DNA of 64,000 nucleotides. It comes from a virus. Each line of letters begins with the position of its first letter. Within the stretch, counting starts at the first letter, position 1. Under the pieces are notes generated by a model that saw only the letters and a list, made by a program, of their open reading frames with translations, ran no database searches and was not told the DNA's origin. A program made the position numbers and the translations under genes. Location: positions 21,476 through 85,475 of the IMG/VR virus record IMGVR_UViG_3300020122_000665. The stretch is one strand, 5' to 3'. Shown one piece after another: positions 1,912-61,594 of this stretch.

Positions 1912-3870
1912 ATGTCTGCAACCAGCGAAGCCGCTTCGCCGGTTGCGCTCGATACCGAGCGCATCGGCGACGCGACCTACGATCCCGAGGACAACAAGCT
2001 GCGCATCCGCCCGTTCGCGCGCCTTCCCCGCGATCTCTACGATCGCGTGAAGGCCGCGGGCTTCTCGTGGGCTCCCAAACAGGAGCTCTTCGTGGCGCCG
2101 ATGTGGACGCCGGAGCGCGCCGATCTCCTCGCGGAGTTGTGCGGCGAGATCGGCGACGAGGATACCTCGCTCGTCGACCGCGCGGAGGAGCGCGCCGATC
2201 GCTTCGGCGACTACTCCGACAAGCGGAAGGACGACGCCGAGACCGCGCGCCAGGCAATCGCCGCCATCGCGGATCACATTCCGCTCGGGCAGCCGATTCT
2301 CGTCGGACATCACAGCGAGAAGCACGCCCGGAAGGACGCGGAGCGCATCGAGAACGGGATGCGCAAGGCCGTCAAAATGTGGGAGACCTCCCAATACTGG
2401 CAGAGGCGCGCCGCGGGCGCGCTCCGGCACGCGAAGTACAAGGAGCTGCCCGCGGTCCGCGCGCGCCGGATCAAGACCATCGAAGCCGACAAGCGCAAGC
2501 GCCAGCGGGAGACCGCCGACGCCGCGAGGCTGCTCAGGCTGTGGGGCTCGATCGAAGATCCCAAGTCGATCACCCGCAACGGCGAGCTCGTGTCGCTCAA
2601 AGAGCGGGCGATGTTCGTCGCGAACCACGACCATATCCATCGGTCGTTTCCGCTGGCCGAGTATCCGCGGCAACCCCCGGCGTCGCAGTACGAGGGTCAG
2701 ATGGGGCTCTGGTCGGCGCTCGACGGCGACGTGATCACGCCGGAGCAGGCGCGGGACATCGCGGTTCCGATCCACGAGCGCGGCAACGCGCGCCGGGCGC
2801 GCTGGATCGCCCACTACGATCTCCGCATCGCCTACGAGCGGGCGATGCTCGCCGACGCCGGCGGCACCGTCACCGACAAGAAGGGCCCCGAGAAGGGCGG
2901 CGCCTGTCGGTGTTGGGCGTCGCCGCGCGGCGGCTGGTCCTACATCCAGAAGGTCAACAGGGTGTCGGTCACCATCCTCGACAATTGGGACCGCGGCGAT
3001 CCCTGTTTCAACCGCACCATCAAGTTCGAAGAAATCACTTCGATCATGACCGCGGCGGAGGTGAAGGCCGCGCGCGAGGACGGTCGGATCGCCGAGATCG
3101 ACGATCGCGGATTCGCCCTGGCGGCGGAAGCTGCGCCGCGTCTGTCGGACGCGCCCGTGGCGCCCATCGACCACGCCTACGTCAACGACGGCACCGGCGA
3201 CAACTGCGCGGAGCTGGTCGCCCACCCCGCAAAGGAGTGGGTTCCGTGTGGGCATCCGAGGAGCGTCCACCGCTCGGTCACGCTCGACCCCACGCCGTTC
3301 GAAGCGATGAAAGCGTCGCTGAAATCCGGCGTCAGAGTGGTTGCGGTCGATCAGCTGTTCGAGACGCCCGCCGACCTGGCGCGGCTCGTCGTCGAACGCG
3401 CCAACGTGCGCGGCCATTTCGTGCTCGAGCCGAGCGCCGGTCTCGGCGCGCTGGCCGGTGAGTGCTACCGCCAGGGCGCCGACGGCGTCATCTGCATCGA
3501 GAGGGCGCCCGCCTGCGCGGCGGCGCTGCGGCGCGGCCCCTTCGCGAAGGTGTGCGAGGCGGACTTTCTCCAGCTGCCCGTGCCCCCCTCCCCAGGGTGG
3601 TCGAAGTTCTACCGGATCGTGATGAATCCGCCGTTTGCCGACGGGGCGGACGTGGCGCACGTGACGCGCGCCTACGAGTGGCTCGCGTCGGGCGGCCGGC
3701 TCGTCGCCATCATGTCCGCGTCGGTCAAGACCCGGCAGGACAAGCGCACCGCCGCCTTCCGGGCGATCGTCGACGGCTGCGGCGGCGAGATCGAAGACCT
3801 GCCGGAGGGCAGCTTCAAGGCGAGCGGCACGGGCGTCAACACGGTGCTCGTCACGCTCTATCGCGAGTAG
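1912..3870 (+). CDS. DUF3560 protein fused to a DNA methyltransferase domain
   Basis: A 652-residue protein. The N-terminal half matches the DUF3560 family of mobile elements: GFSWAPKQELFVAPMW, then SLVDRAEERADRF and the histidine-rich HHSEKHARKDAERIENGM, followed by long charged helices. The C-terminal part is an S-adenosylmethionine-dependent methyltransferase with motif I EPSAGLGALA (about 506) and motif IV NPPF (572-575), the signature of amino (probably N6-adenine) methylases. Likely role: methylation of phage DNA soon after entry or induction. The start is fixed by ggggagg 6 bases upstream. DUF3560 function is unknown to me; substrate and site cannot be read from sequence. Confidence 0.8.
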   Translation: MSATSEAASPVALDTERIGDATYDPEDNKLRIRPFARLPRDLYDRVKAAGFSWAPKQELFVAPMWTPERADLLAELCGEIGDEDTSLVDRAEERADRFGDYSDKRKDDAETARQAIAAIADHIPLGQPILVGHHSEKHARKDAERIENGMRKAVKMWETSQYWQRRAAGALRHAKYKELPAVRARRIKTIEADKRKRQRETADAARLLRLWGSIEDPKSITRNGELVSLKERAMFVANHDHIHRSFPLAEYPRQPPASQYEGQMGLWSALDGDVITPEQARDIAVPIHERGNARRARWIAHYDLRIAYERAMLADAGGTVTDKKGPEKGGACRCWASPRGGWSYIQKVNRVSVTILDNWDRGDPCFNRTIKFEEITSIMTAAEVKAAREDGRIAEIDDRGFALAAEAAPRLSDAPVAPIDHAYVNDGTGDNCAELVAHPAKEWVPCGHPRSVHRSVTLDPTPFEAMKASLKSGVRVVAVDQLFETPADLARLVVERANVRGHFVLEPSAGLGALAGECYRQGADGVICIERAPACAAALRRGPFAKVCEADFLQLPVPPSPGWSKFYRIVMNPPFADGADVAHVTRAYEWLASGGRLVAIMSASVKTRQDKRTAAFRAIVDGCGGEIEDLPEGSFKASGTGVNTVLVTLYRE

Positions 3871-3985
3871 AAGCCGCCATCCGGCGGGGCCACAAGGAGG
3901 TGCCCCCATAGCCGCGGGGCGTGTAACGCGCCCGCCGTCGGTCGCAGCAGCCGGACCGTCGGACGCGGGAATAGGCCAACTGCAT

Positions 3986-4016
3986 GGCGCCCCGGAGGAC
4001 AGACCTCGGGGGCGCC
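3986..4016 (+). promoter_or_regulatory. 13-bp GC hairpin before the 4031 gene RBS
   Basis: ggcgccccggagg (3986-3998) pairs with cctcgggggcgcc (4004-4016) at 12 of 13 positions around a 5-base loop. It ends two bases before the GGAGGTGACCTGATG initiation region of the next gene. It is the fourth case in 4 kb of a strong hairpin in or touching an early-gene ribosome binding site. The rest of 3871-4030 also has weaker inverted repeats and no gene. Confidence 0.5.
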
Positions 4017-4030
4017 CTGGAGGTGACCTG

Positions 4031-4321
4031 ATGAAGTTCCGCGCGAGGATCGCGAACGTCGCGATCACCTATTCAACCATCGAGATTCCCGCCTACTGCG
4101 GAGTGTGCGGATCTGACCTGTGCGGGCCGCGCGCTCTCGAAGAGCAGCGCGTCTGCACGACGATGGCGTTCTCGCACTTCGAGAGCAATCCGGCCGTCGG
4201 AGACGACATCGCCACCGACACGCCCGACGATGACGCGGACGCCACGGCGACGCTGTCGGTGGGCTGCGCCAACTGCGGCGCGCGACTCGCCGTCGGCAAT
4301 ATCTCGGGGACCGAGTCGTGA
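4031..4321 (+). CDS. small zinc-ribbon protein
   Basis: A 96-residue protein with two CxxC pairs about 57 residues apart: CGVCGSDLCG near residue 23 and CANCGARLAVG near residue 80. They should form one zinc-binding knuckle separated by an acidic insertion (DDIATDTPDDDADATAT). The start uses GGAGGTGACCTGATG, identical to the gene at 857. Such ribbons bind nucleic acid or proteins; the partner is unknown. It is the first of many Cys4-type small proteins in this phage. Confidence 0.65.
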   Translation: MKFRARIANVAITYSTIEIPAYCGVCGSDLCGPRALEEQRVCTTMAFSHFESNPAVGDDIATDTPDDDADATATLSVGCANCGARLAVGNISGTES

Positions 4322-5420
4322 GCCGCGCCGCCGCCGGCGCGCAGCGTGGACGAACGAGCGCCTCGTCGAGAGCGCGCTCGGGCGCATCGGGTGCCGGGAC
4401 CGCGCGACCTTCGACGCGGTGAACGAGAAGTACGGCACCGACGTCGAGACCTTCACCGAAGCGTTCGCGGTGTGCGCGCGCAGCTACTCGAGGCGAGGCC
4501 ACCGCCGTTGGGGCGACTTCGACCTCGAGTCGCTGCGCGAGTGCATCGGGCTCGACGGGCTCCGCCTGCCGGGCTGGCTGTACGAGCAGGGAGCCGACGA
4601 CGCATATGCCGCGCACATCGCGCGATGGGAGAACGACGTGACACCGACGGACGAAGAGCTCGAAGAATACTACCGCTCGCTCGAGGAGGGTGACGCGGAC
4701 AAGACCGTCGCCGAGGCCACGCGCGAAGCGGTCGCCGACATGATCGCTGGCGAGAGCCCCAAGCCCAACTTCGACGCCTGGAAGGCGAAGAGGGACGCCG
4801 CGCGCGCCTCGAACCTCGAGAGCACCCGCGACAAGGCGGCGAAGGCCGGCGCGCCGGCCGGAGCGATCCGCCACATCGAGAGCAAGATCCGTGAGGCGCG
4901 GACGGAGTCGGCCCCGCCCGCCCGCAACCGGGCCAAGGACGACGCCGCGGCGCGGGCGATGGAGCGGCTCAGGAACGAGGGCGACGTGCGCGTCGAGGTG
5001 GCCCCCGACAAGGCGCTCGTCAAGGCGGCGCCGCGCGCGCTCGACGGTGCGCAGGGCGGCGCGGTCCAGCTCAACGAGGCGGCGATCGGCACCATCGTCG
5101 GCGCCGTGGTCGATCGCCTCATCGCCTCCGCGTACTCGGCGCCCGAGAGGCGCCGCGCCGAGTGGGTCTCGTGGATGAGCAAGGCCCGTCTCTGGCACTG
5201 CCCGGCGTGCGACGTCGACTCCCACAAGGTCGTCTGCTCGCGGTGCGGCGATATCGACGGGCTCGAGGGGCACTACCGCGGCACCGAGGGGTGGAAGGAG
5301 ATCGCGCGTCGGAAGGCGGAGGATCTGCTCTCCTCGCCCGAGGAGACGAAGAAGGCGGCGGCGCCGCTCAAGGCGCTCCCCGCCGCGCGTCCGCGCCACC
5401 TGTCGATCGTGCGGTCGTGA
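4230..5420 (+). CDS. early protein with C-terminal zinc ribbon; start uncertain
   Basis: Up to 396 residues. Protein-like sequence begins at about WTNERLVESALG (position 4345). Recognisable content is a charged helical middle and a C-terminal ribbon (HCPACDVDSHKVVCSRCGD). The only in-frame ATG upstream, 4230, lies 92 bases inside the preceding gene and has no ribosome binding site. A GTG at 4318 overlaps the preceding stop as GTGA, the pattern used by nearly all genes here, but it is one base out of frame with the long reading frame. A single-base indel or an unusual start is therefore possible. Function unknown. Confidence 0.55.
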   Translation: MTRTPRRRCRWAAPTAARDSPSAISRGPSREPRRRRRAAWTNERLVESALGRIGCRDRATFDAVNEKYGTDVETFTEAFAVCARSYSRRGHRRWGDFDLESLRECIGLDGLRLPGWLYEQGADDAYAAHIARWENDVTPTDEELEEYYRSLEEGDADKTVAEATREAVADMIAGESPKPNFDAWKAKRDAARASNLESTRDKAAKAGAPAGAIRHIESKIREARTESAPPARNRAKDDAAARAMERLRNEGDVRVEVAPDKALVKAAPRALDGAQGGAVQLNEAAIGTIVGAVVDRLIASAYSAPERRRAEWVSWMSKARLWHCPACDVDSHKVVCSRCGDIDGLEGHYRGTEGWKEIARRKAEDLLSSPEETKKAAAPLKALPAARPRHLSIVRS

Positions 5421-5704
5421 CCGAACTCGACCTGTGGGTCACACGCGCGCCGCGGCCCAACGACGGAGACCCCGACGAGGATCACAGCTACGACCTGGCG
5501 CGCCTCGCCTGCAAAGGCAACGTGCTCGAGCTCGACGATCCCGACGAGCCGGGCGGCAAGGTCGAGGTGTCCGCCACGGACTTCCTCTACGACAACCGCG
5601 AGGACAGCGACGTGATCGCCGCCGTGGTGGCGCTCGACGTCGGCGAGGAGGCCCGCCTCGGCGGCGGGGCGCAGCCGGTCACCGTCATTCGGAGGGTCCA
5701 ATGA
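5417..5704 (+). CDS. 95-residue acidic early protein, unknown
   Basis: Starts with GTG overlapping the previous stop (gtga), giving MTELDLWVTRAPRPNDGDPD. The protein is very acidic, with no cysteines forming a ribbon and no known domain. It is translationally coupled to both neighbours by 4-base overlaps. Acidic small early phage proteins are sometimes DNA mimics; nothing here proves that. Confidence 0.6.
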   Translation: MTELDLWVTRAPRPNDGDPDEDHSYDLARLACKGNVLELDDPDEPGGKVEVSATDFLYDNREDSDVIAAVVALDVGEEARLGGGAQPVTVIRRVQ

Positions 5705-5925
5705 CGTTCGACCTCGAAGTGGTGAGAGCCGTGGTCGACGCCTACGGCGACGTCATGTGCGAGGCCGTCGCCTCCGCCGTCCAGAAGGTCTACGGCGACG
5801 ACGGCGACGGAAGCGCCGCGCGCGTCGTGCGCGCCGCCTGGAAGGTGGCCCACCCGGGAATCGTCGACGAGCTCGTGTTGAACCTCTCGAAGGCGAAGAC
5901 GGGCAAGCCGCGGAGGAAGCCATGA
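5701..5925 (+). CDS. 74-residue early protein, unknown
   Basis: ATG overlaps the previous stop (atga), with ggagggtcc just upstream. The protein, beginning MTFDLEVVRAVVDAYGDV, looks mainly helical with a basic C-terminus (KAKTGKPRRKP). No family is recognised. It is part of the tightly overlapped chain of early genes from 5417 to 12190. Confidence 0.6.
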   Translation: MTFDLEVVRAVVDAYGDVMCEAVASAVQKVYGDDGDGSAARVVRAAWKVAHPGIVDELVLNLSKAKTGKPRRKP

Positions 5926-6317
5926 GCGCGCACTGCTATCGCATCAGGAAGACCGTCGAGTGCCACTCGCCCGACGCCATCGCGCCGCTCGACCGCGACG
6001 GCAATCCGAACGTGGAGCAGCAGCGGCACCGTCACACCTGGCCGACGATGGCCTTCACCTGCTCCATCTGCAAGCGCCACGTGTGCGGCTGGTGCGAGGG
6101 CAGCAGCTTCGAGATGGAGCTGTCGCAGCTGCTCTCCGACGACGAGAGCGAAATGCAGTTCTGCGACGAATGCATGGTCGCGCTCGAGGAGGCAATCGAG
6201 GCTCACGAGCGCTTCCCGTCGATGACCGCCCCGACATACAGCGACGGCGGATACGTCTCCAGGGCCATGCACCGGATCATCCGCGCCGCGGTGGCGTCGG
6301 GAGAGCTCCGGCAATGA
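5922..6317 (+). CDS. zinc-finger protein
   Basis: A 131-residue protein coupled by ATGA overlap. Cysteines CSICKRHVCGWCEG (about residues 47-60) and CDEC (about 89-92) form a probable treble-clef or RING-like zinc site, followed by a helical C-terminus. The predicted role is nucleic-acid or protein binding; no specific family is assigned. Confidence 0.65.
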   Translation: MSAHCYRIRKTVECHSPDAIAPLDRDGNPNVEQQRHRHTWPTMAFTCSICKRHVCGWCEGSSFEMELSQLLSDDESEMQFCDECMVALEEAIEAHERFPSMTAPTYSDGGYVSRAMHRIIRAAVASGELRQ

Positions 6318-7116: not shown

Positions 7117-7310
7117 TGCGCGCCCTGGTGCGTTGCCTCGCTCGCCTTGCCGGCGCGGCGTTGCTGCGCTCCGCGGGAGCGCCTGATCCGATACCGCTCC
7201 GTCTGGAGATCGTGCCGCGCGCGCGCCGCGCGCCCCGGATCCGGGCGGAGCAGCTCTCCCTCGATCTGGCTGTACCTCGAATCGACCGCTTGGAGGAGCG
7301 CTCCCGATGA
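7116..7310 (+). CDS. 64-residue arginine-rich protein, unknown
   Basis: Starts at ATG sharing one base with the previous TGA, with a good ribosome binding site (ggaagggatcctg). The product is Ala/Leu/Arg-rich, beginning MRALVRCLARLAGAALLRSA. No domain is recognised. Its place in the coupled gene chain supports it more than its sequence does. Confidence 0.45.
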   Translation: MRALVRCLARLAGAALLRSAGAPDPIPLRLEIVPRARRAPRIRAEQLSLDLAVPRIDRLEERSR

Positions 7311-8020
7311 TCTTCGAACTCGACTCCGACCTATCACGTCGAGATACGACGTGGGAGAAGGCGCGCTACCTCGAGCAGCTCCCGCTCGGCGCCGCGCCCG
7401 GATCGCGCGGGTGGGTCCACCGCTCGCTCCGCCTCCGCATCGCGGAGTCTCGCGCCGACTGCGCGCTCGCCGCCGACATCGTGAAGCACCGCCACTACCA
7501 CCGAAAGTGGCCCTGCCCGCCGAAGACGCTGATGATGAGCTACCTCTCCAGCCTCGACGGCGTCGGCGGGCTCGACGCCGCGGGCCTCGTGTCCGTGGCG
7601 CTGCTGCCCAACCGCTACCACGTGCGCGAGGCGCTCGGACTCTCGCAGCTCGAGTGCCTGACGCTGGTTCGCATGTGGCGCGCCGACGACCTCGTGCCGA
7701 CGATCGCGCCCGATCTCACGCCGGAGACGCTCCGCCGCGTCGTGCGCGGCGAGAGAAACCGCGGCCCGCTGCGCGGGGTGCGCGACGAGTGGATCGCGCG
7801 CAAGTGCCGCGCGGACGGGCTGCGCGCCGCGCCTCGCCTGCTCGCCACCTACGCCGATCCGGCGCTCGGGCACGACGGCGCGACCTACGTCGCCGCTGGC
7901 GCCGTCGACTGCGGCCGCGCGCGCTGCGGGAAGCTGCTCTTCGCGTGGGGGCTCGACGAGGAGACCCGCAACAACCTGGCCGCGCTCGGGCGCGCCGTCG
8001 CCGAAAGGACCGCCGCATGA
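7307..8020 (+). CDS. Mom-like GNAT-fold DNA modification protein
   Basis: 237 residues, ATGA-coupled. A conserved pattern of the phage Mu Mom/GNAT-like group is visible: an N-terminal HRHYHRKWP segment, a middle LSQLECLTLVRMW segment, and the C-terminal core LLATYADPALGHDGATY at residues 178-194 (YADxxxGHxGxxY). In Mu, Mom converts adenine to N6-carbamoylmethyladenine and protects DNA from restriction. The neighbours at 8232 (cytosine methylase) and 10495 (DndC-like) fit a DNA-modification block. The match is by motif memory, not a search, so another GNAT function is possible. Confidence 0.55.
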   Translation: MIFELDSDLSRRDTTWEKARYLEQLPLGAAPGSRGWVHRSLRLRIAESRADCALAADIVKHRHYHRKWPCPPKTLMMSYLSSLDGVGGLDAAGLVSVALLPNRYHVREALGLSQLECLTLVRMWRADDLVPTIAPDLTPETLRRVVRGERNRGPLRGVRDEWIARKCRADGLRAAPRLLATYADPALGHDGATYVAAGAVDCGRARCGKLLFAWGLDEETRNNLAALGRAVAERTAA

Positions 8021-8235
8021 GACCGATCTACTTCAGCGCATCGATCTCCATCCCCTGGTGGAAGCACAAGCGGAAACCGCTGTTTCACCACGAGCCGGCG
8101 AACGTCCTCCGCAGCGGGCTCACGATGTCGCAGCCCTCGTCGCACATCCACGTCGGCCCCCTTCACATCGGAATCGTGTGGCGCGAGTCCGACGAGGCGA
8201 AGGCGAAGCGCCTCGTCGAGGCGGAAAGCCGATGA
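8017..8235 (+). CDS. 72-residue early protein, unknown
   Basis: ATGA-coupled between the Mom-like gene and the cytosine methylase gene. The sequence begins MRPIYFSASISIPWWKHKRK and continues with a beta-rich HIHVGPLHIGIVWRE segment. No family is recognised. Context suggests an accessory to the modification block. Confidence 0.55.
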   Translation: MRPIYFSASISIPWWKHKRKPLFHHEPANVLRSGLTMSQPSSHIHVGPLHIGIVWRESDEAKAKRLVEAESR

Positions 8236-10271
8236 AGTCGAAACCGAAGCGCGCGACGCGTCGGCCGCCGATGCTACGCCTGCACACCGAAGATCTGGTG
8301 ATCGACAACTTCGCCGGCGGCGGCGGCGCCAGCCTCGGTATCGAGTGGGCGCTCGGCCGCTCGCCGGACATCGCGGTCAACCACGATCCCGAGGCGCTCG
8401 CGATGCACGCCGCCAACCACCCCGACACGAAGCACCTCTGCGAGTCGGTGTGGGATGTCGACCCGCGGAAGGTGTGCGGCGACAAGCAAGTCGAGCTCGC
8501 GTGGTTCTCGCCAGATTGCACATACCATTCAAAAGCCCGAGGCGGAAAGCCCTTCCGCGATCGCAACAAGGCGCGCCGCCGGCGCGGCCTCGCCTGGGTC
8601 GTCGTTCGATGGGCCGAGGCGAGGAAACCCCGGCTAATCATGCTCGAGAACGTCGAGGAGTTCGAGGATTGGGGGCCGCTCCTCGACGACGGCACGCCCG
8701 ACAAGACTCGCGCCGGGTTCACCTTCCGTCGGTGGGTCGCGCGCCTCCGCAACCTCGGCTACGACGTCGACTGGCGCCAGCTCCGCGCGTGCGACTACGG
8801 CGCGCCGACGACGCGCAAGCGGCTCTTCCTGATCGCGCGCTGCGACGGGCTTCCGATCGTGTGGCCCGAGGCGACGCACGCCCCGCCGGCGGTCGCCGCG
8901 GCGAAGGGCCTCAAGCCCTACCGCACCGCCGCCGAGTGCATCGACTGGTCGATCCCCTGCCCGTCGATCTTCCTCACCAACGCCGAGGGCAAGAAGATCG
9001 GCGTGAAGCGGCCGCTCTCCGACAACACGCTGCGGCGCATCGCGCGAGGCATCAAGAAGTTCGTCCTCGACGCCAAGGACCCATTCATCGTCCCCGATGC
9101 CGACCGCCGGCCGAAAGCGATGGTTCCATTCATCGCGCCTGTTTCGCACACCGGCGTCCGACCGAGCGGCACCAGCGTCGACGCTCGCGTGCATTCGATC
9201 AACGAGCCACTCCCGACGGTCACCGGAGCGCGCCGCGGCGAGAAGGCGCTCGTGCAGCCATTCCTCACGCCGGTCAAGACGTGGGGCGGCGGCGGCAACG
9301 AGCCGCGCTCCATCAACGAGCCGATGCGGACCACGACCACGTCGAAGCGTGGAGAGCACGCCATCGTCGCGCCGCTCCTCGCGCGCATCGGGCAAACCGG
9401 CGGAAACGGCGACTACTCGAACGACGCGCGCACCCCGCTCACCACCGTCACCACAAAGGCGGAGCACCTCCTCATCGCGCCGACGCTGATCCAGACCTCC
9501 TACGGCGAGCGCAAGGGCCAGAAGCCGCGCACGCTCGACCTGCACGCGCCGCTCGGCACCGTCGTCGGGCAGGGAGTGAAGCACTCGGTCGTCTCCGCAT
9601 TCCTGGCGAAGCACTACGGCGGCCCGGGCGTGGAGCGCATCACCAAGCAGCCGGCCGGGACGTCGATGGATGCGCCGGTCGACACCATCACACAGCGCGA
9701 CCACCACACGGTCATCGAGGCGCAGCTCGAGCCCTGGCTCGACGACCACGACAACACGGACCCCGACGGGGCCGAATACGAGGGTGGATTCTTCGGGCCC
9801 ACCATCGAAGCCTCGCATTTGGTCCACCTGCGCGGTGGCGTCGACGACCACCCCAACACCGCGCAGGCCGTCGAGGAGCCGCTGCCGACGGTCACGGCGA
9901 ACGGGAACCACATCGCCGAGGTCCGCGCGCTGCTGATCAAATACTACGGCACCGACCAGGACCCGCAGCTCGGCGAGCCGCTCCACACCGTCACCACCAA
10001 GGACCGCTTCGCGCTGATCGTGACGATCCACGGCGTCGACTACGAGATCGTCGACATCGGAATGCGGATGCTCTCGCCGCGCGAGCTCTTCCGCGCGCAG
10101 GGCTTCCCCGACTCCTACGACATCGAGTCGGAGTGGGAAGGCGTGAAGCTCACCAAGACCTCGCAGGTCCGCATGTGCGGCAACGCGGTAAGCCCCGTCA
10201 TGTCGGAGGCGCTGGCGAAGGCGAACTACGTCCGTCGGATGGGCGATCTCGCCGCCGGATGCGTGTCCTGA
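8232..10271 (+). CDS. DNA cytosine-C5 methyltransferase
   Basis: 679 residues, ATGA-coupled. Motif I FAGGGGASLGIE (27-38), catalytic loop SPDC (Cys96, in the SPDC variant rather than PPCQ), ENV (139-141), motif VIII CDYGAPTTRKR (186-196) and C-terminal motifs LSPRELFRAQGFP and MCGNAVSP identify a Dcm-type enzyme. It is much longer than usual because residues about 360-620 hold seven degenerate repeats of the type EPLPTVTxxx(A/L)xVxPxL, probably the target-recognition region. Role: 5-methylcytosine in phage DNA, protecting against restriction. Part of the modification block with the 7307 and 10495 genes. Confidence 0.9.
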   Translation: MKSKPKRATRRPPMLRLHTEDLVIDNFAGGGGASLGIEWALGRSPDIAVNHDPEALAMHAANHPDTKHLCESVWDVDPRKVCGDKQVELAWFSPDCTYHSKARGGKPFRDRNKARRRRGLAWVVVRWAEARKPRLIMLENVEEFEDWGPLLDDGTPDKTRAGFTFRRWVARLRNLGYDVDWRQLRACDYGAPTTRKRLFLIARCDGLPIVWPEATHAPPAVAAAKGLKPYRTAAECIDWSIPCPSIFLTNAEGKKIGVKRPLSDNTLRRIARGIKKFVLDAKDPFIVPDADRRPKAMVPFIAPVSHTGVRPSGTSVDARVHSINEPLPTVTGARRGEKALVQPFLTPVKTWGGGGNEPRSINEPMRTTTTSKRGEHAIVAPLLARIGQTGGNGDYSNDARTPLTTVTTKAEHLLIAPTLIQTSYGERKGQKPRTLDLHAPLGTVVGQGVKHSVVSAFLAKHYGGPGVERITKQPAGTSMDAPVDTITQRDHHTVIEAQLEPWLDDHDNTDPDGAEYEGGFFGPTIEASHLVHLRGGVDDHPNTAQAVEEPLPTVTANGNHIAEVRALLIKYYGTDQDPQLGEPLHTVTTKDRFALIVTIHGVDYEIVDIGMRMLSPRELFRAQGFPDSYDIESEWEGVKLTKTSQVRMCGNAVSPVMSEALAKANYVRRMGDLAAGCVS

Positions 10272-10498
10272 TGGCGAAGCTCAGCGAAGAGGAACGATTG
10301 GCGGCCACGACGCGTCGGATCCTCCGGGATAAGCGGCGTGCCGACAAAGTCCCCGATCGATCTGCGCAGTGCGGAATCTCCTACTACAGCCAGAGCCCTC
10401 GGCAGCGCGAGGAAGGGACGTATTGGAAGGAGTGCCATCGCTGCAAGAAGCCGCTCGACTATCAACCCGTGGCGACCAGAAGGGAGTGCATCCCATGA
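10271..10498 (+). CDS. 75-residue protein with CxxC knuckle
   Basis: The ATG shares its first base with the previous stop. A basic N-terminal helix (SEEERLAATTRRILRDKRRA) leads to cysteines at C34, CHRCKKPLDY and ECIP, a single possible zinc site. It lies directly before the DndC-like gene and overlaps it by ATGA, so the two are probably made together. Confidence 0.6.
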   Translation: MAKLSEEERLAATTRRILRDKRRADKVPDRSAQCGISYYSQSPRQREEGTYWKECHRCKKPLDYQPVATRRECIP

Positions 10499-11892
10499 GG
10501 CAGGAAGCCCTATTCGGCGGCGCGCGGCTTCAGATGAGCGATTCCATCCGCTTGACGATCGAATCTCTGTTCACCTACGGGTCGACCCATCAGCATTGGG
10601 CGATCGCGTGGTCGGGAGGGAAGGACTCGACGGTCCTGCTGACGATGGTCGTATGGATCCTGCTCTCAGCCAGGGAAGCGCGCCGCGGGGCGTTCATCAT
10701 CAACGCCGAAATCACGGCTCTGTTGCGCCTGCTCCGCGCCCCGAAGTCTCTGACAGTGCTTTACGCGGACACGCGCATGGAGATCCCCCCGCTGTGGCAG
10801 GCGGCCTGCTCGATTCGCGACGAGCTGACCGACAAGGCCGCTGATCTCGCCGAGAACGGCTGCACGCTCGTCGTGCGCACTGTGATGGCGCCGATCGATC
10901 ATCGATTCTTCGTCTACATGCTCGGGCGCGGCGTTCCGCCTCCGTCGACTAGATTTCGGTGGTGCACCGATAAGCTGAAGATCCAGCCGATGGCCGAGGA
11001 GCTGCGACGCCTCGTCGAGGCGGAGCGCCAGACTCCGCCGCCTCCCTCGGAAGCGATCGCCGCCGTGGCTGATGATCTTCGCCAGAAGCTCGGCGACGAC
11101 TACGAGGTCATTGGTCCGAGGAAGCTATCCGATAAGATCCTCCTGCTCACCGGGCTCCGCGTCGGTGAGAGCGCTGCGCGCGATGACCGGATCGCGATCG
11201 CGTGCGGCCGCGACGGCGGTGAGTGCGGCCAGGGCTGGTATCAAGAGTCGCTCGACTCGTCATTCTGCGACACGCTGGCGCCCATTCTTCACATGCGCGT
11301 CTGCCACGTGTGGGAGTGGCTGAAGCATTGGGCCGAGCGGATCGAGTTCGGAGACTGGTCGACCGCGCTTCTCGCGGATGCGTACGGCGGCGACGAGGCG
11401 GAGGAGAAAAACGCGCGCACCGGCTGCGTCGACTGCAATCTCGTCGAGGAGGATCGGGCGCTCAAATACAGCAGTCGCCTTGATGGATGGACGCATCTTC
11501 AGCTCCTGGTCGGAGCCCTCAAAGCGATCTACGCGGAGATGAAGAAGCCGCAACACCGGCTACGACAGCCCGGAGGCGAGCGCCGGAAGGATGGAAAGCT
11601 GGCGCTCAACCAGCAGCGACTCGGCCCACTGCTGCTCACGTCGAGGATCCAGTTCCTCGACCAGATCCTCGAAGTGCAGGCGCGCGTGAACGCCGAGGCC
11701 GATCGCATCGGAGCCCCGCGCCTCAACATCCTCAACGCAGAGGAGGAAGCGCGAATCCGCGAACTGGTGGCGGCGAACACCTGGCCCGACGGATGGAATG
11801 GCGACGAGCCGGAGGGCGATGTCATGCTCGACAGAATGTTCGCGGACGGGACCATCCAGCCTTTGCTCCGTGGCTTCGGAGAAGGCACATGA
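10495..11892 (+). CDS. DndC-like PP-loop sulfurtransferase
   Basis: 465 residues, close to DndC length. The PP-loop SGGKDS is at 40-45. GRGVPPP-STRFRWCTDKLKI (144-163) parallels the DndC stretch GKGYPxPxxKFRWCTxRLKI, followed by LLLTGLRVGESAARDDR (216-232) and a Cys pair TGCVDCNLVEEDRAL (309-323) like the DndC GCWVCTLVDQDK region. DndC/PAPS-reductase-type enzymes activate a substrate with ATP; DndC installs sulfur in the DNA backbone as phosphorothioate. No DndA, DndD or DndE partner is visible in the window, so it would have to borrow a host cysteine desulfurase or act in a different modification. Coupled by ATGA to both neighbours. Confidence 0.75.
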   Translation: MRQEALFGGARLQMSDSIRLTIESLFTYGSTHQHWAIAWSGGKDSTVLLTMVVWILLSAREARRGAFIINAEITALLRLLRAPKSLTVLYADTRMEIPPLWQAACSIRDELTDKAADLAENGCTLVVRTVMAPIDHRFFVYMLGRGVPPPSTRFRWCTDKLKIQPMAEELRRLVEAERQTPPPPSEAIAAVADDLRQKLGDDYEVIGPRKLSDKILLLTGLRVGESAARDDRIAIACGRDGGECGQGWYQESLDSSFCDTLAPILHMRVCHVWEWLKHWAERIEFGDWSTALLADAYGGDEAEEKNARTGCVDCNLVEEDRALKYSSRLDGWTHLQLLVGALKAIYAEMKKPQHRLRQPGGERRKDGKLALNQQRLGPLLLTSRIQFLDQILEVQARVNAEADRIGAPRLNILNAEEEARIRELVAANTWPDGWNGDEPEGDVMLDRMFADGTIQPLLRGFGEGT

Positions 11893-12190: not shown

Positions 12191-12933
12191 TCGTCCTCGC
12201 CCTCCTCCTATGCATCCCGCCCGCGATCGAGCACGAGCACCGGGGCCTCCTCAAGCACCGCGCCGCGTCCGAGCAGCCGCCCGTGCGCGTGACCGTCGCC
12301 GAGATGCTGGCGTGGCCCGATCCCGCTGGCGCCTCGGACAAGCGCGTGCGCGCGAGCCAGGAGCCGATCGACGAGCACGAGCGCACGGTGTACGTGCTCG
12401 AAGGCGTGGTGGAGCTGGTGCGGCGGGAGAAGGACTGCGACCTGCACATCGAACTGAGCGAAGGAGCGAGCGATGGATTACGAGAAAGCGCCAGCCGCGA
12501 CGTGCGAACACGGCATCACAGCGCCGAACTGGTGCCTACGGTGCGCGGCCGGTGCGGAGCGACGAATCCGATGCAAGCGCGGCCAGTGCGCGCACTGCGG
12601 GGGCGATCTACTGGGCAGGAGTTGCCGTCAGTGCGGCATTCTGAACGATGCTTGCGGAGAGTGCGAGCGCTGCCGCAAACCATAATCGTCGAAATCCCCG
12701 GCGAGCTGCACCTCCCTCGCGTGCGCCGTGGCGATCGCGTGCGCGTCGTCGGGTGGGGGTTCTTCGACGGGGCGCATACGTGGCAGGGGAGGGCCACGCC
12801 GTGGGAGCTGCATCCGGTTTGGTCGGTGAAGAAGCTATCGGATCCGCTTCTTCCCCATCGCTGGCGTCATTCGTGGAGCGCTCGCAAGAAGGTCGCCACC
12901 AGGCGACGCGTAGCGCTTCCGCCGTCCCTCTGA
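12187..12933 (+). CDS. exported OB-fold-like protein with an internal nested gene
   Basis: 248 residues in one uninterrupted frame, ATGA-coupled. The N-terminus is a short signal-like segment (MIVLALLLCIPP). A beta-rich segment, VYVLEGVVELVRREKDCDLHIELS (about 67-90), and a second one, TIIVEIPGELHLPRVRRGDR... VVGWGFFD (about 166-198), read like two halves of one OB-fold domain. Between them is a basic stretch of about 70 residues with no such character. That stretch corresponds to the separate zinc-finger gene at 12473 in another frame. The 3' end overlaps the convergent sigma-factor gene by 99 bases. Confidence 0.5.
   Translation: MIVLALLLCIPPAIEHEHRGLLKHRAASEQPPVRVTVAEMLAWPDPAGASDKRVRASQEPIDEHERTVYVLEGVVELVRREKDCDLHIELSEGASDGLRESASRDVRTRHHSAELVPTVRGRCGATNPMQARPVRALRGRSTGQELPSVRHSERCLRRVRALPQTIIVEIPGELHLPRVRRGDRVRVVGWGFFDGAHTWQGRATPWELHPVWSVKKLSDPLLPHRWRHSWSARKKVATRRRVALPPSL
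12473..12685 (+). CDS. 70-residue zinc-finger protein nested in the 12187 gene
   Basis: Starts MDYEKAPAATCEHGITAPNW with gaaggagcgagcg upstream and ends at 12685. It has eleven cysteines in CxxC-like spacing (CLRCAAG, CKRGQCAHCGG, CRQCG, CGECERC), so it is a much more convincing protein than the overlapping frame. It lies wholly inside the longer frame of the 12187 gene. It may be a small gene inserted without breaking that frame. Confidence 0.6.
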   Translation: MDYEKAPAATCEHGITAPNWCLRCAAGAERRIRCKRGQCAHCGGDLLGRSCRQCGILNDACGECERCRKP

Positions 12934-13944
12934 TTCTTGCTCCACAAGAATCGGACGTTCTGCGGCGAGCCGGATCCGGTAGCAGTTGCCCTCCTTCCGC
13001 TCCGCCGGCGACTTGACCTCCTCGACGGGAATCCCTTCGGTCCTCATCGTCGCCAGCCACTGATAGACCTGCGGCCGGCTACGCCCGACGAGGCGCGCGA
13101 GCGAACGCACGGTCTTCGGCCCGGCGAGGAGCGCGACGATCACCTGCGACATCGCCGCCGCCGCGCTCTTGCGCCGCTTCTCCTCCTTCGCCGCCGTCGG
13201 GTCGGGCTTCGCCCACGGCAACAGCTCGCGCAGGCGCTCCTTGCCCTTCATCTCGATCTGGCGCACGCGCGTCGGGTGCAATCGATCGCCGGCCGCCGAC
13301 GTCACGCCGACCGCCTTCAGGTCGACGCCGTCCGCGCGCTCGAGCAGCACCTGGCGCTCGCGCGCCGGAAGGCGGTCTACCGCGCGACGCACGAGCACAC
13401 CCTCTTGCGCGCGCACCGCCGCCGTCTCCGAGCTCTCCGCATCGTCGGCGATCGTGTCCCCGAGGGGTCGCCCATCGGCGCCGTGCACCGGGGCGTCCAT
13501 CGCCGCGTCCGACGCCATGCGCAGCCGTGCCGCCGTGTTCGCGCCATCCGCCGTCGCCGGATCCGCGCGCCGCAGGGCCTTCTCGACCCGCTGCGGCGAC
13601 GACAGGATGTCGATCGGCAGCTTCATCGCGCGCGCGTTCTCGGTGACCCACCGCTGCATCGCCCGCAGGACAGGCTTCGAGAAGTAGCTCAGCGGCGACA
13701 CGCCGCGCGCCGGGTCGAACGTGGGCGCCGCCTCCATGATCGCGATCGCTCCCTCGGAGTCGAGGTCGTCGATCGCCGCGTCGGGGAGGCCGAGCTTCAG
13801 GAACTGCCGCGCGCGCCGGCGGCGGAACCCCTGCGTCGCCGCCAGCACCGCGCCCATCGCGTCCTTGTCTCCCTCGCGGAGCCGCGCGAGGATGGCGACG
13901 AGGCGCTCCGACAGCTCGCCGCCCGCCTGCTGCTGCTGCGTCAC
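12835..13944 (-). CDS. phage sigma-70-family factor with C-terminal wHTH
   Basis: 369 residues. Region 2 is visible at about 55-110 (DDLDSEGAIAIMEAAPTFDP then YFSKPVLRAMQRWV). Region 4 is visible at about 190-245 (VDRLPARERQVLLERADGVD, then HPTRVRQIEMKGKERLREL with the recognition helix). It is followed by an extra winged-helix-like domain at about 265-325 (SQVIVALLAGPKTVRSLARL, then GRSRPQVYQWLATMRTEGI). A phage sigma factor would direct host RNA polymerase to phage promoters, most simply the leftward late genes. It is the last gene of the leftward replication operon, coupled by ATGA to the 13941 gene, and overlaps the convergent 12187 gene. Confidence 0.75.
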   Translation of the reverse strand: MTQQQQAGGELSERLVAILARLREGDKDAMGAVLAATQGFRRRRARQFLKLGLPDAAIDDLDSEGAIAIMEAAPTFDPARGVSPLSYFSKPVLRAMQRWVTENARAMKLPIDILSSPQRVEKALRRADPATADGANTAARLRMASDAAMDAPVHGADGRPLGDTIADDAESSETAAVRAQEGVLVRRAVDRLPARERQVLLERADGVDLKAVGVTSAAGDRLHPTRVRQIEMKGKERLRELLPWAKPDPTAAKEEKRRKSAAAAMSQVIVALLAGPKTVRSLARLVGRSRPQVYQWLATMRTEGIPVEEVKSPAERKEGNCYRIRLAAERPILVEQESEGRRKRYASPGGDLLASAPRMTPAMGKKRIR

Positions 13945-14156
13945 CGTCGCGCGGCGCGCCGCGCGCGCTCGCCAGCGTTCATCTCGGTGCGAACCCGGTC
14001 CGCGGCTCCATCGAGCAGGTCAATCACCTGGCGGTCGGTGAGACGATGCACGAACCGCTGCTTCCGGCACACCTCGTCGATCGCCGCGCGCGCGGCGCGC
14101 AGCCCTGCCAGATCTGGCGGCTCGATGTGACCCTTCCTCGGCGGCTTCGTTTTCAT
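13941..14156 (-). CDS. 71-residue basic protein, unknown
   Basis: Starts MKTKPPRKGHIEPPDLAGLR; ATG overlaps the stop of the upstream methylase gene. It is helical and basic with a single Cys. No family is recognised. Position between methylase and sigma factor suggests an accessory regulator only by context. Confidence 0.6.
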   Translation of the reverse strand: MKTKPPRKGHIEPPDLAGLRAARAAIDEVCRKQRFVHRLTDRQVIDLLDGAADRVRTEMNAGERARRAARR

Positions 14157-14854
14157 GGCGCTCCTTCGATTAGCGAGAGTTGCGGCTGCTTCGGTGGGAG
14201 GAGGTACTTCTCGAGTTCCGACGCCGGCGCGAGATGGCCGAGGACACGCTCCTCCTTCGGGAATCGACGGAGGAGCCGATACTGGCCGACGGTGCGCGAG
14301 CGCGACGCGGGCGGGCCCCACACGAACCATGAGTAGGGCGTGCTGTCGCCGCTCTTCTTTTCGCCGGGCTTCGGCTTGATGAACTTCACCCGGCCAACCC
14401 GATCGTCGTCGGGCATCATCGGCGAGAATAGCTTCTGCCGCTCCTCGCTGTCGCCGACCCACTGCGTGCGCTCGAGGCAGACCACCCAGTCGGCGATCGC
14501 CAGTGCGAGGAGCACGAACGCGACCGCGGCGGGGAACGGAGGGTTGAACATCGCCACGTCGAAGTGCGGCATCCGCCTCAGATCGGCGGCGCGCTCCTCC
14601 AGCGCGCCGATGATCGTGCGCGCGCCGAGCGCTTCAAGGCGCGGCCGGCACTCGTCGCGCAGCTCGAGCGCCGTCCACTCGATGTCGCGGCGCACGGCGT
14701 TGACCGCTCGGATGATGTCGCCATCGCCGGCGCCGAGCTCAACCCAACGGCCGCCGGGCAGCGAGCGCGCTTCCAACTCCGCGCGCACGACATACGACGG
14801 AGTCGGGTAGAAGTCGGCGATTGAGCGCTCGCCGCCGCGGTTGGTGCTGCTCAC
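14153..14854 (-). CDS. DNA adenine (N6) methyltransferase
   Basis: 233 residues. FYPTPSYVV near residue 15, SAM-binding ELGAGDGDI near 39 and the catalytic NPPF near 104 are the ordered motifs of small phage N6-adenine methylases. The C-terminus (SWFVWGPPASRSRTVGQYRLL) matches the usual end of this group. Likely role is methylation of phage DNA, complementing the cytosine methylase and the DUF3560 fusion. ATGA-coupled to neighbours in the leftward operon. Confidence 0.8.
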   Translation of the reverse strand: MSSTNRGGERSIADFYPTPSYVVRAELEARSLPGGRWVELGAGDGDIIRAVNAVRRDIEWTALELRDECRPRLEALGARTIIGALEERAADLRRMPHFDVAMFNPPFPAAVAFVLLALAIADWVVCLERTQWVGDSEERQKLFSPMMPDDDRVGRVKFIKPKPGEKKSGDSTPYSWFVWGPPASRSRTVGQYRLLRRFPKEERVLGHLAPASELEKYLLPPKQPQLSLIEGAP

Positions 14855-61141: not shown

Positions 61142-61436
61142 TCGGCGCGTTTCCGGCCCTGGTAATCGTTCCGTCGACGGTGAGCCGTGGCCCGTCGGGA
61201 ACGTGCCGGCGTGGTGCTGCTACAGGGCTCGGCGACAACGCCGTGGCGTCGTCGAGCTCGTGCCGTCCGCGACCTCCGCCTGGTGCATCGCCACGACTTC
61301 GGGCGACGGAGGTGCAAACGTTGGTGGTGCAGCGGCGCAGGCATCGCGCAGCGATGTAGAGGAGGCAGACCTCGACGAGTTGCCGCCGAGGTCGCGATCG
61401 CCGCACCGAAGCGTGGCGAGTGGTTTTTTGTCGATG
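61142..61436. other. gap between tRNA-Thr and scaffold genes
   Basis: 295 bases. No minus-strand frame looks like protein. A plus-strand stem (tcgccgc/gcgtggcga, near 61398-61418) is followed by tttttt, so it might terminate plus-strand transcription, but no plus-strand gene ends here. A scaffold promoter may lie here. Confidence 0.35.
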
Positions 61437-61509
61437 AGCCCCGAGCAGGAATCGAACCTGCGACCGTCGGCTTACGAAGCCGCTGCTCTGCCGTCTGAGC
61501 TACAGGGGC
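61437..61509 (-). tRNA. tRNA-Thr (anticodon CGT)
   Basis: 73 bases fold as a full cloverleaf on the minus strand. The acceptor is gcccctg/tcggggc (one mismatch, one wobble), D stem gctc/gagc, anticodon stem gcggc/gccga with loop ttcgtaa, T arm gcagg-ttcgatt-cctgc, discriminator T; CCA is not encoded. It reads ACG. The same anticodon is present in the attP tRNA fragment at 36450, but the sequences differ, so this is a separate phage tRNA. It lies inside the late head operon. Confidence 0.9.
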
Positions 61510-61521
61510 CAGGAACTACGG

Positions 61522-61594
61522 AGCGGCAAGCGGGAATCGAACCCGCAACGTCCGGCTTGGAAGGCCAGCGCTCTGCCAGTTGAGCTATCGCCGC
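61522..61594 (-). tRNA. tRNA-Gly (anticodon TCC)
   Basis: 73 bases with cloverleaf on the minus strand: acceptor gcggcga/ttgccgc, D stem gctc/gagc, anticodon stem ctggc/gccgg with loop cttccaa, T arm gcggg-ttcgatt-cccgc, discriminator T; CCA not encoded. It reads GGA, a rare glycine codon in GC-rich genomes. It would be made with the head genes. Confidence 0.92.

Follow-up and report, generated by a model that had tools for sequence, protein, structure and literature searches.

Genes at the locus

The window analysed here is a stretch of 64,000 nucleotides (bases 21476-85475) of an 85,475-base virus record in IMG/VR, IMGVR_UViG_3300020122_000665. It carries a compact run of genes encoding a Mom-like protein, a C5 cytosine DNA methyltransferase (C5 methylase) and a PP-loop enzyme related to DndC (Table 1), the last of which, with its methylase companion and its kin in cyanobacterial dnd islands, is the main subject of this account. 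The window has a G+C content of about 68%, and its DnaB-like helicase and weak tail and baseplate matches are compatible with a tailed phage. At the nucleotide level, the only phage match is a 165-bp methylase stretch (75%).

Five consecutive plus-strand genes, from the Mom-like gene to the PP-loop gene, are coupled by start/stop overlaps of the form ATGA or TGATG, and a zinc-ribbon gene begins 55 bases past the last of them. The third-position GC of the Mom-like, C5 methylase and PP-loop open reading frames (ORFs) is gene-like (0.92, 0.91 and 0.80, respectively), while the alternative frames overlapping them lack gene-like codon-position G+C. An original prediction, made from this DNA alone, had placed the three modification ORFs in one coupled operon, and both the overlaps and the codon-position composition uphold it. 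The start of the PP-loop gene, ATG 10495, agrees with that of its relatives.

The C5 methylase matches PF00145 with 104.4 bits (cut-off 22) and phrog_116 with an E-value of 8e-102, and keeps catalytic motifs I, IV, VI and X as FAGGGG, PDC, ENV and GNAV; it is a C5 enzyme, as predicted, and intact. Its start at ATG 8232 overlaps the stop of the preceding small gene, and a longer ORF from GTG 8058 was rejected as frame read-through. Its six PLxTVT-type repeats lie in the target-recognition region (protein residues 326-588) and might relate to several target sites.

Table 1. Modification genes and their neighbours, in window coordinates
Feature	Position	Strand	Basis
Mom-family-like protein, 237 aa	7307..8020	+	PF25680 24.4 bits; PHROG 1384; Mu Mom motifs
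Small protein, 72 aa, without cysteine	8017..8235	+	start/stop overlaps with neighbours; no family match
C5 cytosine DNA methyltransferase, six PLxTVT-type repeats	8232..10271	+	PF00145, phrog_116, catalytic motifs
Small protein, 75 aa, one CxxC	10271..10498	+	no family match
DndC-related PP-loop ATP pyrophosphatase / probable Fe-S sulfurtransferase, 465 aa	10495..11892	+	phrog_12882; DndC model
Zinc-ribbon-like small protein, 80 aa	11948..12190	+	two CxxC pairs; weak zinc-ribbon matches
DUF3560 + class-I methyltransferase domain	1912..3870	+	PF12083 E 4e-36; phrog_15406 E 3e-38
Methyltransferase-like protein, outside operon	14153..14854	-	phrog_799 E 1e-17

The PP-loop enzyme is a relative of DndC

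The best match of the PP-loop protein is phrog_12882 (E 3e-146). Among PP-loop models the DndC model, TIGR03183, fits by far the best (E 1e-26), though its 93.9 bits fall well below the equivalog cut-off of 290.4. The predicted kinship with DndC thus holds, with phrog_12882 as the closer family. Phages of Pseudomonas, Rhizobium and Microcystis carry relatives that are 50-57% identical and are labelled either DndC or phosphoadenosine phosphosulfate (PAPS) reductase.

For alignments and a tree of the family, 80 viral and 80 genome loci were collected. Across 41 diverse members, five cysteines (C157, C237, C244, C311 and C314) are unchanged, as is the SGGKDS motif save for one glycine that is only nearly invariant. 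The alignment places C157, C311 and C314 opposite C146, C280 and C283, three of the four iron-sulfur (Fe-S) cysteines of DndC, reported as cluster ligands in the E. coli (B7A) enzyme (PMC12193691). The loop that supplies the fourth DndC ligand (C262/C273), directly before GCxxC, is absent from the family; its own cysteine loop, GECGQG (C237...C244), lies earlier in the chain, before an APIxxW...VW stretch. The AlphaFold2 model adopts a PP-loop fold with an overall pLDDT (predicted local distance difference test) of 87.7. Its least certain inner part, residues 226-243, lies just before the GECGQG loop, and this low certainty would fit a mobile loop. A Foldseek search with the model returned only generic PP-loop folds (GMP synthetase, CysH and LarE), and a sequence search of the PDB gave nothing convincing.

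In the tree, 119 members form a cluster distinct from both DndC and the small Thermus, Clostridia and archaeal relatives. This is a quick build with a long window branch, rooted for drawing only; judged by sequence, the family stands next to DndC as a separate clade. On a Clostridiales contig (locus L162), a C5-methylase-looking ORF (4901-5989, minus strand) lies about 2 kb upstream of a short GGECGQG relative, on the other strand.

Recurrent pairing with DNA methylases

In phages, the gene for the PP-loop enzyme repeatedly has a DNA methylase as its companion. Among 129 dereplicated loci, 45 have a C5 methylase no more than 3 kb from the PP-loop gene, and in 38 of those 45 it is upstream. When C5 matches are counted within 8-kb flanks, 45 of 50 fall at 3 kb or less against the 44% expected from flank lengths (p 1e-11, with related phages in the sample not being independent events). 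Whole phage records contain 26 C5 genes, of which 17 are at most 4 kb from the PP-loop gene, compared with 4.0 expected. Immediate neighbours were tallied by Pfam scans of the nearest neighbours of at least 120 aa, plain ORF clustering being swamped by antisense ORFs. The nearest neighbour is a C5 methylase at 18 of 106 upstream and 7 of 99 downstream positions, and an N6/N4 methylase at 6/106 and 5/99, which makes methylase domains the commonest immediate upstream neighbours and places them among the commonest downstream. That the methylases are so varied suggests that 5-methylcytosine (5mC) as such is not required for the PP-loop step.

Nearness of this kind could arise if the genes were unrelated passengers in a mosaic accessory region, drawn together by the clustering of early phage genes. 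The rarity of Mom beside the PP-loop gene (see below) and the many PP-loop loci with no methylase detected nearby are in keeping with such a view. Since the C5 control is confined to the same 8-kb flanks in which C5 matches crowd the PP-loop gene, a general tendency of early genes to cluster fails to account for their nearness, and the cyanobacterial pairing with TIGR04096 described below is independent of phage early regions. Mere passengers are accordingly quite unlikely.

The neighbours also bear on the label "phosphoadenosine phosphosulfate reductase", under which such genes stand in PHROGs and GenBank. Phage "PAPS reductase" or "cysH" genes are often taken as metabolic helpers, and the PP-loop enzyme might likewise be a CysH, encoded by an auxiliary metabolic gene and serving to enhance sulfate assimilation; CysH is indeed among the folds that Foldseek returned. 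The match to the PAPS reductase family PF01507, by contrast, reaches only 18.7 bits, below the gathering score of 22.5, and DndC fits far better than this or any other PP-loop model. In CysH, the catalytic ECGxH sits at the C-terminal tail; the window enzyme has its ECG in mid-chain, as ECGQG (E243-C244), and no CysH-type C-terminus. The neighbour tallies contain DNA methylases, joined in cyanobacteria by dnd genes, and not one sulfate-assimilation family. A role in sulfate assimilation is therefore unlikely, and the neighbours of the family point to DNA modification, in agreement with the earlier placement of this enzyme on the DNA side.

Cyanobacterial dnd islands

Members of the family occur in 20 of 65 genomes from the order of Nodosilinea sp. 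FACHB-131. DndD is present in 13 of these 20 and in none of the other 45 (Fisher 5e-9); in the remaining seven it was not found, some of the assemblies or copies being broken. Most cyanobacterial members sit in dnd islands, where DndB, DndC, DndD, DndE and TIGR04096 (dnd_rel_methyl, a putative methyltransferase associated with DNA phosphorothioation) were confirmed with NCBIfam models. TIGR04096 lies 0.2-1.7 kb from the PP-loop gene in about 16 of the 20 genomes, in most of them at about 0.2 kb and in divergent orientation, and in one island (L140) a cysteine desulfurase adjoins the PP-loop gene. Canonical DndC is also present in the islands whose DNA extended that far (L128, L136, L139 and L140), so that the PP-loop gene encodes a second, distinct PP-loop enzyme there. 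In the quick tree, the dnd-linked clade is nested in viral diversity, beside a viral contig (L069).

That cyanobacterial members sit in complete dnd islands raises the thought that the phage enzyme tampers with host phosphorothioation, either by helping phage DNA to gain the host mark or by disrupting Dnd-based restriction. Phages are known to antagonise Dnd restriction, albeit through a different protein (PMC12345140). Against this stand the spread of the family over phages of Pseudomonas, Rhizobium, Microcystis and others, its recurrence with methylases, and the seven cyanobacterial genomes lacking a detected DndD. Tampering with a host Dnd system is thus possible though doubtful.

A Mom-like gene as a probable add-on

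The first gene of the coupled run encodes a divergent relative of Mom, by the measure of weak profile matches and shared motifs. Its score against Pfam PF25680 is below the gathering cut-off of 27.1 bits, and it matches PHROG 1384, "Mom-like", with an E-value of 8e-5. Alignment with Mu Mom reveals the core motifs HY, RMWxxDDxxP and ADPxxGHxGxxY in common, and H63, Y64, R122, D127, D128, D184, G188, G191 and Y194 are invariant in a three-way alignment that includes Mu Mom. The predicted Mom kinship is weak but real. With the window protein alone as query, no relatives were found in phages or viral contigs; they were recovered only by alignment-based searches, and a further Mom search gave a single 137-kb IMG/VR contig (G066). 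The nearest relative, 57% identical in the alignment, is a C-terminal mom part on that contig. Both proteins lack the Mu-type C-terminal region and end at the same point, such that its absence seems a trait of the subtype rather than damage in the window copy. The single-sequence AlphaFold2 model (pLDDT 36) is too poor to show a GNAT fold, and a PDB sequence search found nothing convincing.

The original prediction had joined the Mom-like and DndC-like enzymes in one undescribed composite system. Searched from both sides, the two families rarely meet: a Pfam Mom match turned up in one (G038) of 50 further PP-loop records, a lower bound since the Pfam model misses some members, as the divergent window Mom illustrates, and a DndC-type gene occurs in 2 of 50 records with Mom (G038 and G066). 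A recurrent Mom-DndC composite was rejected on these counts. The two families lie about 20 kb apart in G038, whereas in G066 two mom genes are found no more than about 6 kb from a full DndC, a canonical one that passes the TIGR03183 cut-off. At that locus (L178), all on the minus strand, are the orphan DndC (8039-9559), a complete mom gene (5011-5817), an HNH-endonuclease-like ORF (4295-4993) and, following it, the mom C-terminal part (3898-4257). A radical-SAM-like ORF (9837-10667, minus strand) is also found there. Mom and DndC-type families can hence meet in one phage, yet they are not regular partners.

All three window enzymes might nonetheless serve one pathway that would write a composite DNA modification, for example acylated plus thiolated. 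They share one coupled run, and G066 independently brings Mom together with DndC, as does G038 at a greater distance; both records had already surfaced in earlier Mom or PP-loop searches, which weakens this support. Mu Mom is not known to require a sulfur step, and the low co-occurrence in either direction argues against a joint pathway, which is very improbable. Its rarity with the PP-loop enzyme marks Mom as a probable add-on, and the window mom gene looks like a chance acquisition. The methylase pair and its dnd-island counterpart are a stronger finding than the trio, with a function predicted from sequence and gene context.

Proposed function

The likeliest role of these genes is anti-restriction, with a putative DndC-like sulfurtransferase acting together with the methylase or alongside it. 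More fully, and with somewhat better than even confidence, the stretch may be read as a phage DNA-modification region of two layers: a core of C5 methylase and PP-loop enzyme that inserts sulfur into DNA, and a separate Mom-like add-on. This reading builds on the observed gene order, the conservation of motifs and cysteines, the recurrent methylase pairing and the linkage to dnd islands; Fe-S binding, sulfur transfer, DNA as the substrate and protection of phage DNA are predictions from it. The C5 methylase would write 5mC. In the PP-loop enzyme, SGGKDS would be the ATP-binding site, and C157, C311 and C314, together with either C237 or C244, are the probable ligands of a 4Fe-4S cluster. A host cysteine desulfurase such as IscS could load sulfur onto a cysteine of the flexible GECGQG loop, from which the enzyme would place it into DNA, in the backbone or a base, with the sites dictated by the methylase or by a different partner from host or phage. 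The Mom-like enzyme, separately acquired, would acylate adenine, and each layer may shield phage DNA from restriction.

Several points weigh against this reading. A tblastn search found no DndA, DndB, DndD or DndE in the phage record, leaving the gene an orphan, as predicted, with no DndB, DndD or DndE relative to work with; DndC is known to be active only in complex with DndD and DndE. Of 50 phage records that carry the PP-loop gene, 24 lack a C5 methylase, which makes the pairing frequent rather than obligatory, and the type of partner varies (C5, N6/N4 or D12), so that a direct physical partnership of methylase and PP-loop enzyme is conjectural. The cyanobacterial link, for its part, could reflect a role in dnd islands other than making the DNA mark, such as regulation or repair.

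Conceivably, the methylase and the DndC-like enzyme would by themselves make up a minimal sulfur DNA-modification system without DndD or DndE. The methylase (C5 or N6/N4, with TIGR04096 in cyanobacteria) would recognise the DNA, and the pair, spreading via phages, would have entered cyanobacterial dnd islands or come from them. This idea can be entertained only tentatively.

The original prediction regarded an orphan phage DndC as unusual. Such genes have been noted before and are not new: isolated phages have related genes under the annotation DndC or PAPS reductase, DndC or SspD genes of Sinorhizobium prophages are listed together with type II methylases, with no function given (PMC12429752), and a phage DndC of PHROG_424 figures among candidate anti-defence genes (PMC13299392). 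A reappraisal of Dnd treats DndC and cytosine methylases near CxC ATPases, and the phage PP-loop family is not mentioned in the parts of that article consulted (PMC10853773); the literature covered is open-licence, and an account elsewhere is possible. The family is large, extending over phages, prophages and host genomes of Pseudomonadota, Bacteroidota, Cyanobacteriota, Chloroflexota and others. Its recurrent companion, a methylase in phages and dnd_rel_methyl in cyanobacteria, is a concrete and testable partner, and bears both on the roles of orphan phage DndC genes and on that of the dnd-associated methyltransferase TIGR04096.

Other genes in the window

Three small genes around the core, at 8017, 10271 and 11948, had been described as zinc genes with a possibly conserved neighbourhood. 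The description suits the third, with its two CxxC pairs, and fails for the first; the second has a single CxxC. A tblastn search of the collected PP-loop loci (E 1e-3) gave no relative of any of the three, and the possible conservation is not borne out. Of the "two adenine-type methylases" reported elsewhere in the window, the DUF3560 protein has a C-terminal class-I methyltransferase domain and the other is methyltransferase-like; an adenine target is conjectural for either. The DUF3560 fusion, which also has a weak PADLOC match to mad2, is possibly part of the phage modification set. Further along, a minus-strand ORF (12835-13944) resembles, by eye only, an RNA polymerase sigma-factor-type regulator, and two tRNA genes, Thr(CGT) and Gly(TCC), are spaced ten bases apart at 61436-61594 on the minus strand.

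Comparison with known systems

The window PP-loop enzyme shares with DndC (TIGR03183) the SGGKDS motif, three Fe-S cysteines and the RWCT and GCxxC motifs. It differs in its far lower score (93.9 versus 290.4 bits), its separate clade, the place of its cysteine loop and its occurrence in a phage without DndB, DndD or DndE. Much closer are the phage proteins of phrog_12882 and phrog_424, named "phosphoadenosine phosphosulfate reductase", in phiC725A, Dobby and RR1-A, which belong to the same family as phrog_12882 and are 50-57% identical over most of their length. In these phages, too, the PP-loop gene adjoins a C5 methylase; they have no Pfam Mom match, and the window copy carries two extra insertions relative to its phage relatives. 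SspD and BrxP belong to the same superfamily and give weak PADLOC matches (9e-5 and 9e-8, respectively), whereas the PADLOC DndC models fit the window enzyme far better (1e-28). The Mom-like protein has the HY, RMWxxDD.P and ADxxxGxxGxxYxA motifs of phage Mu Mom (PF25680), and is set apart from it by a long central insertion, the missing Mu-type C-terminal region and a score under the Pfam cut-off. The C5 methylase, with its catalytic motifs intact, matches the long phage C5 methylases of phrog_116, with no distinguishing trait seen.

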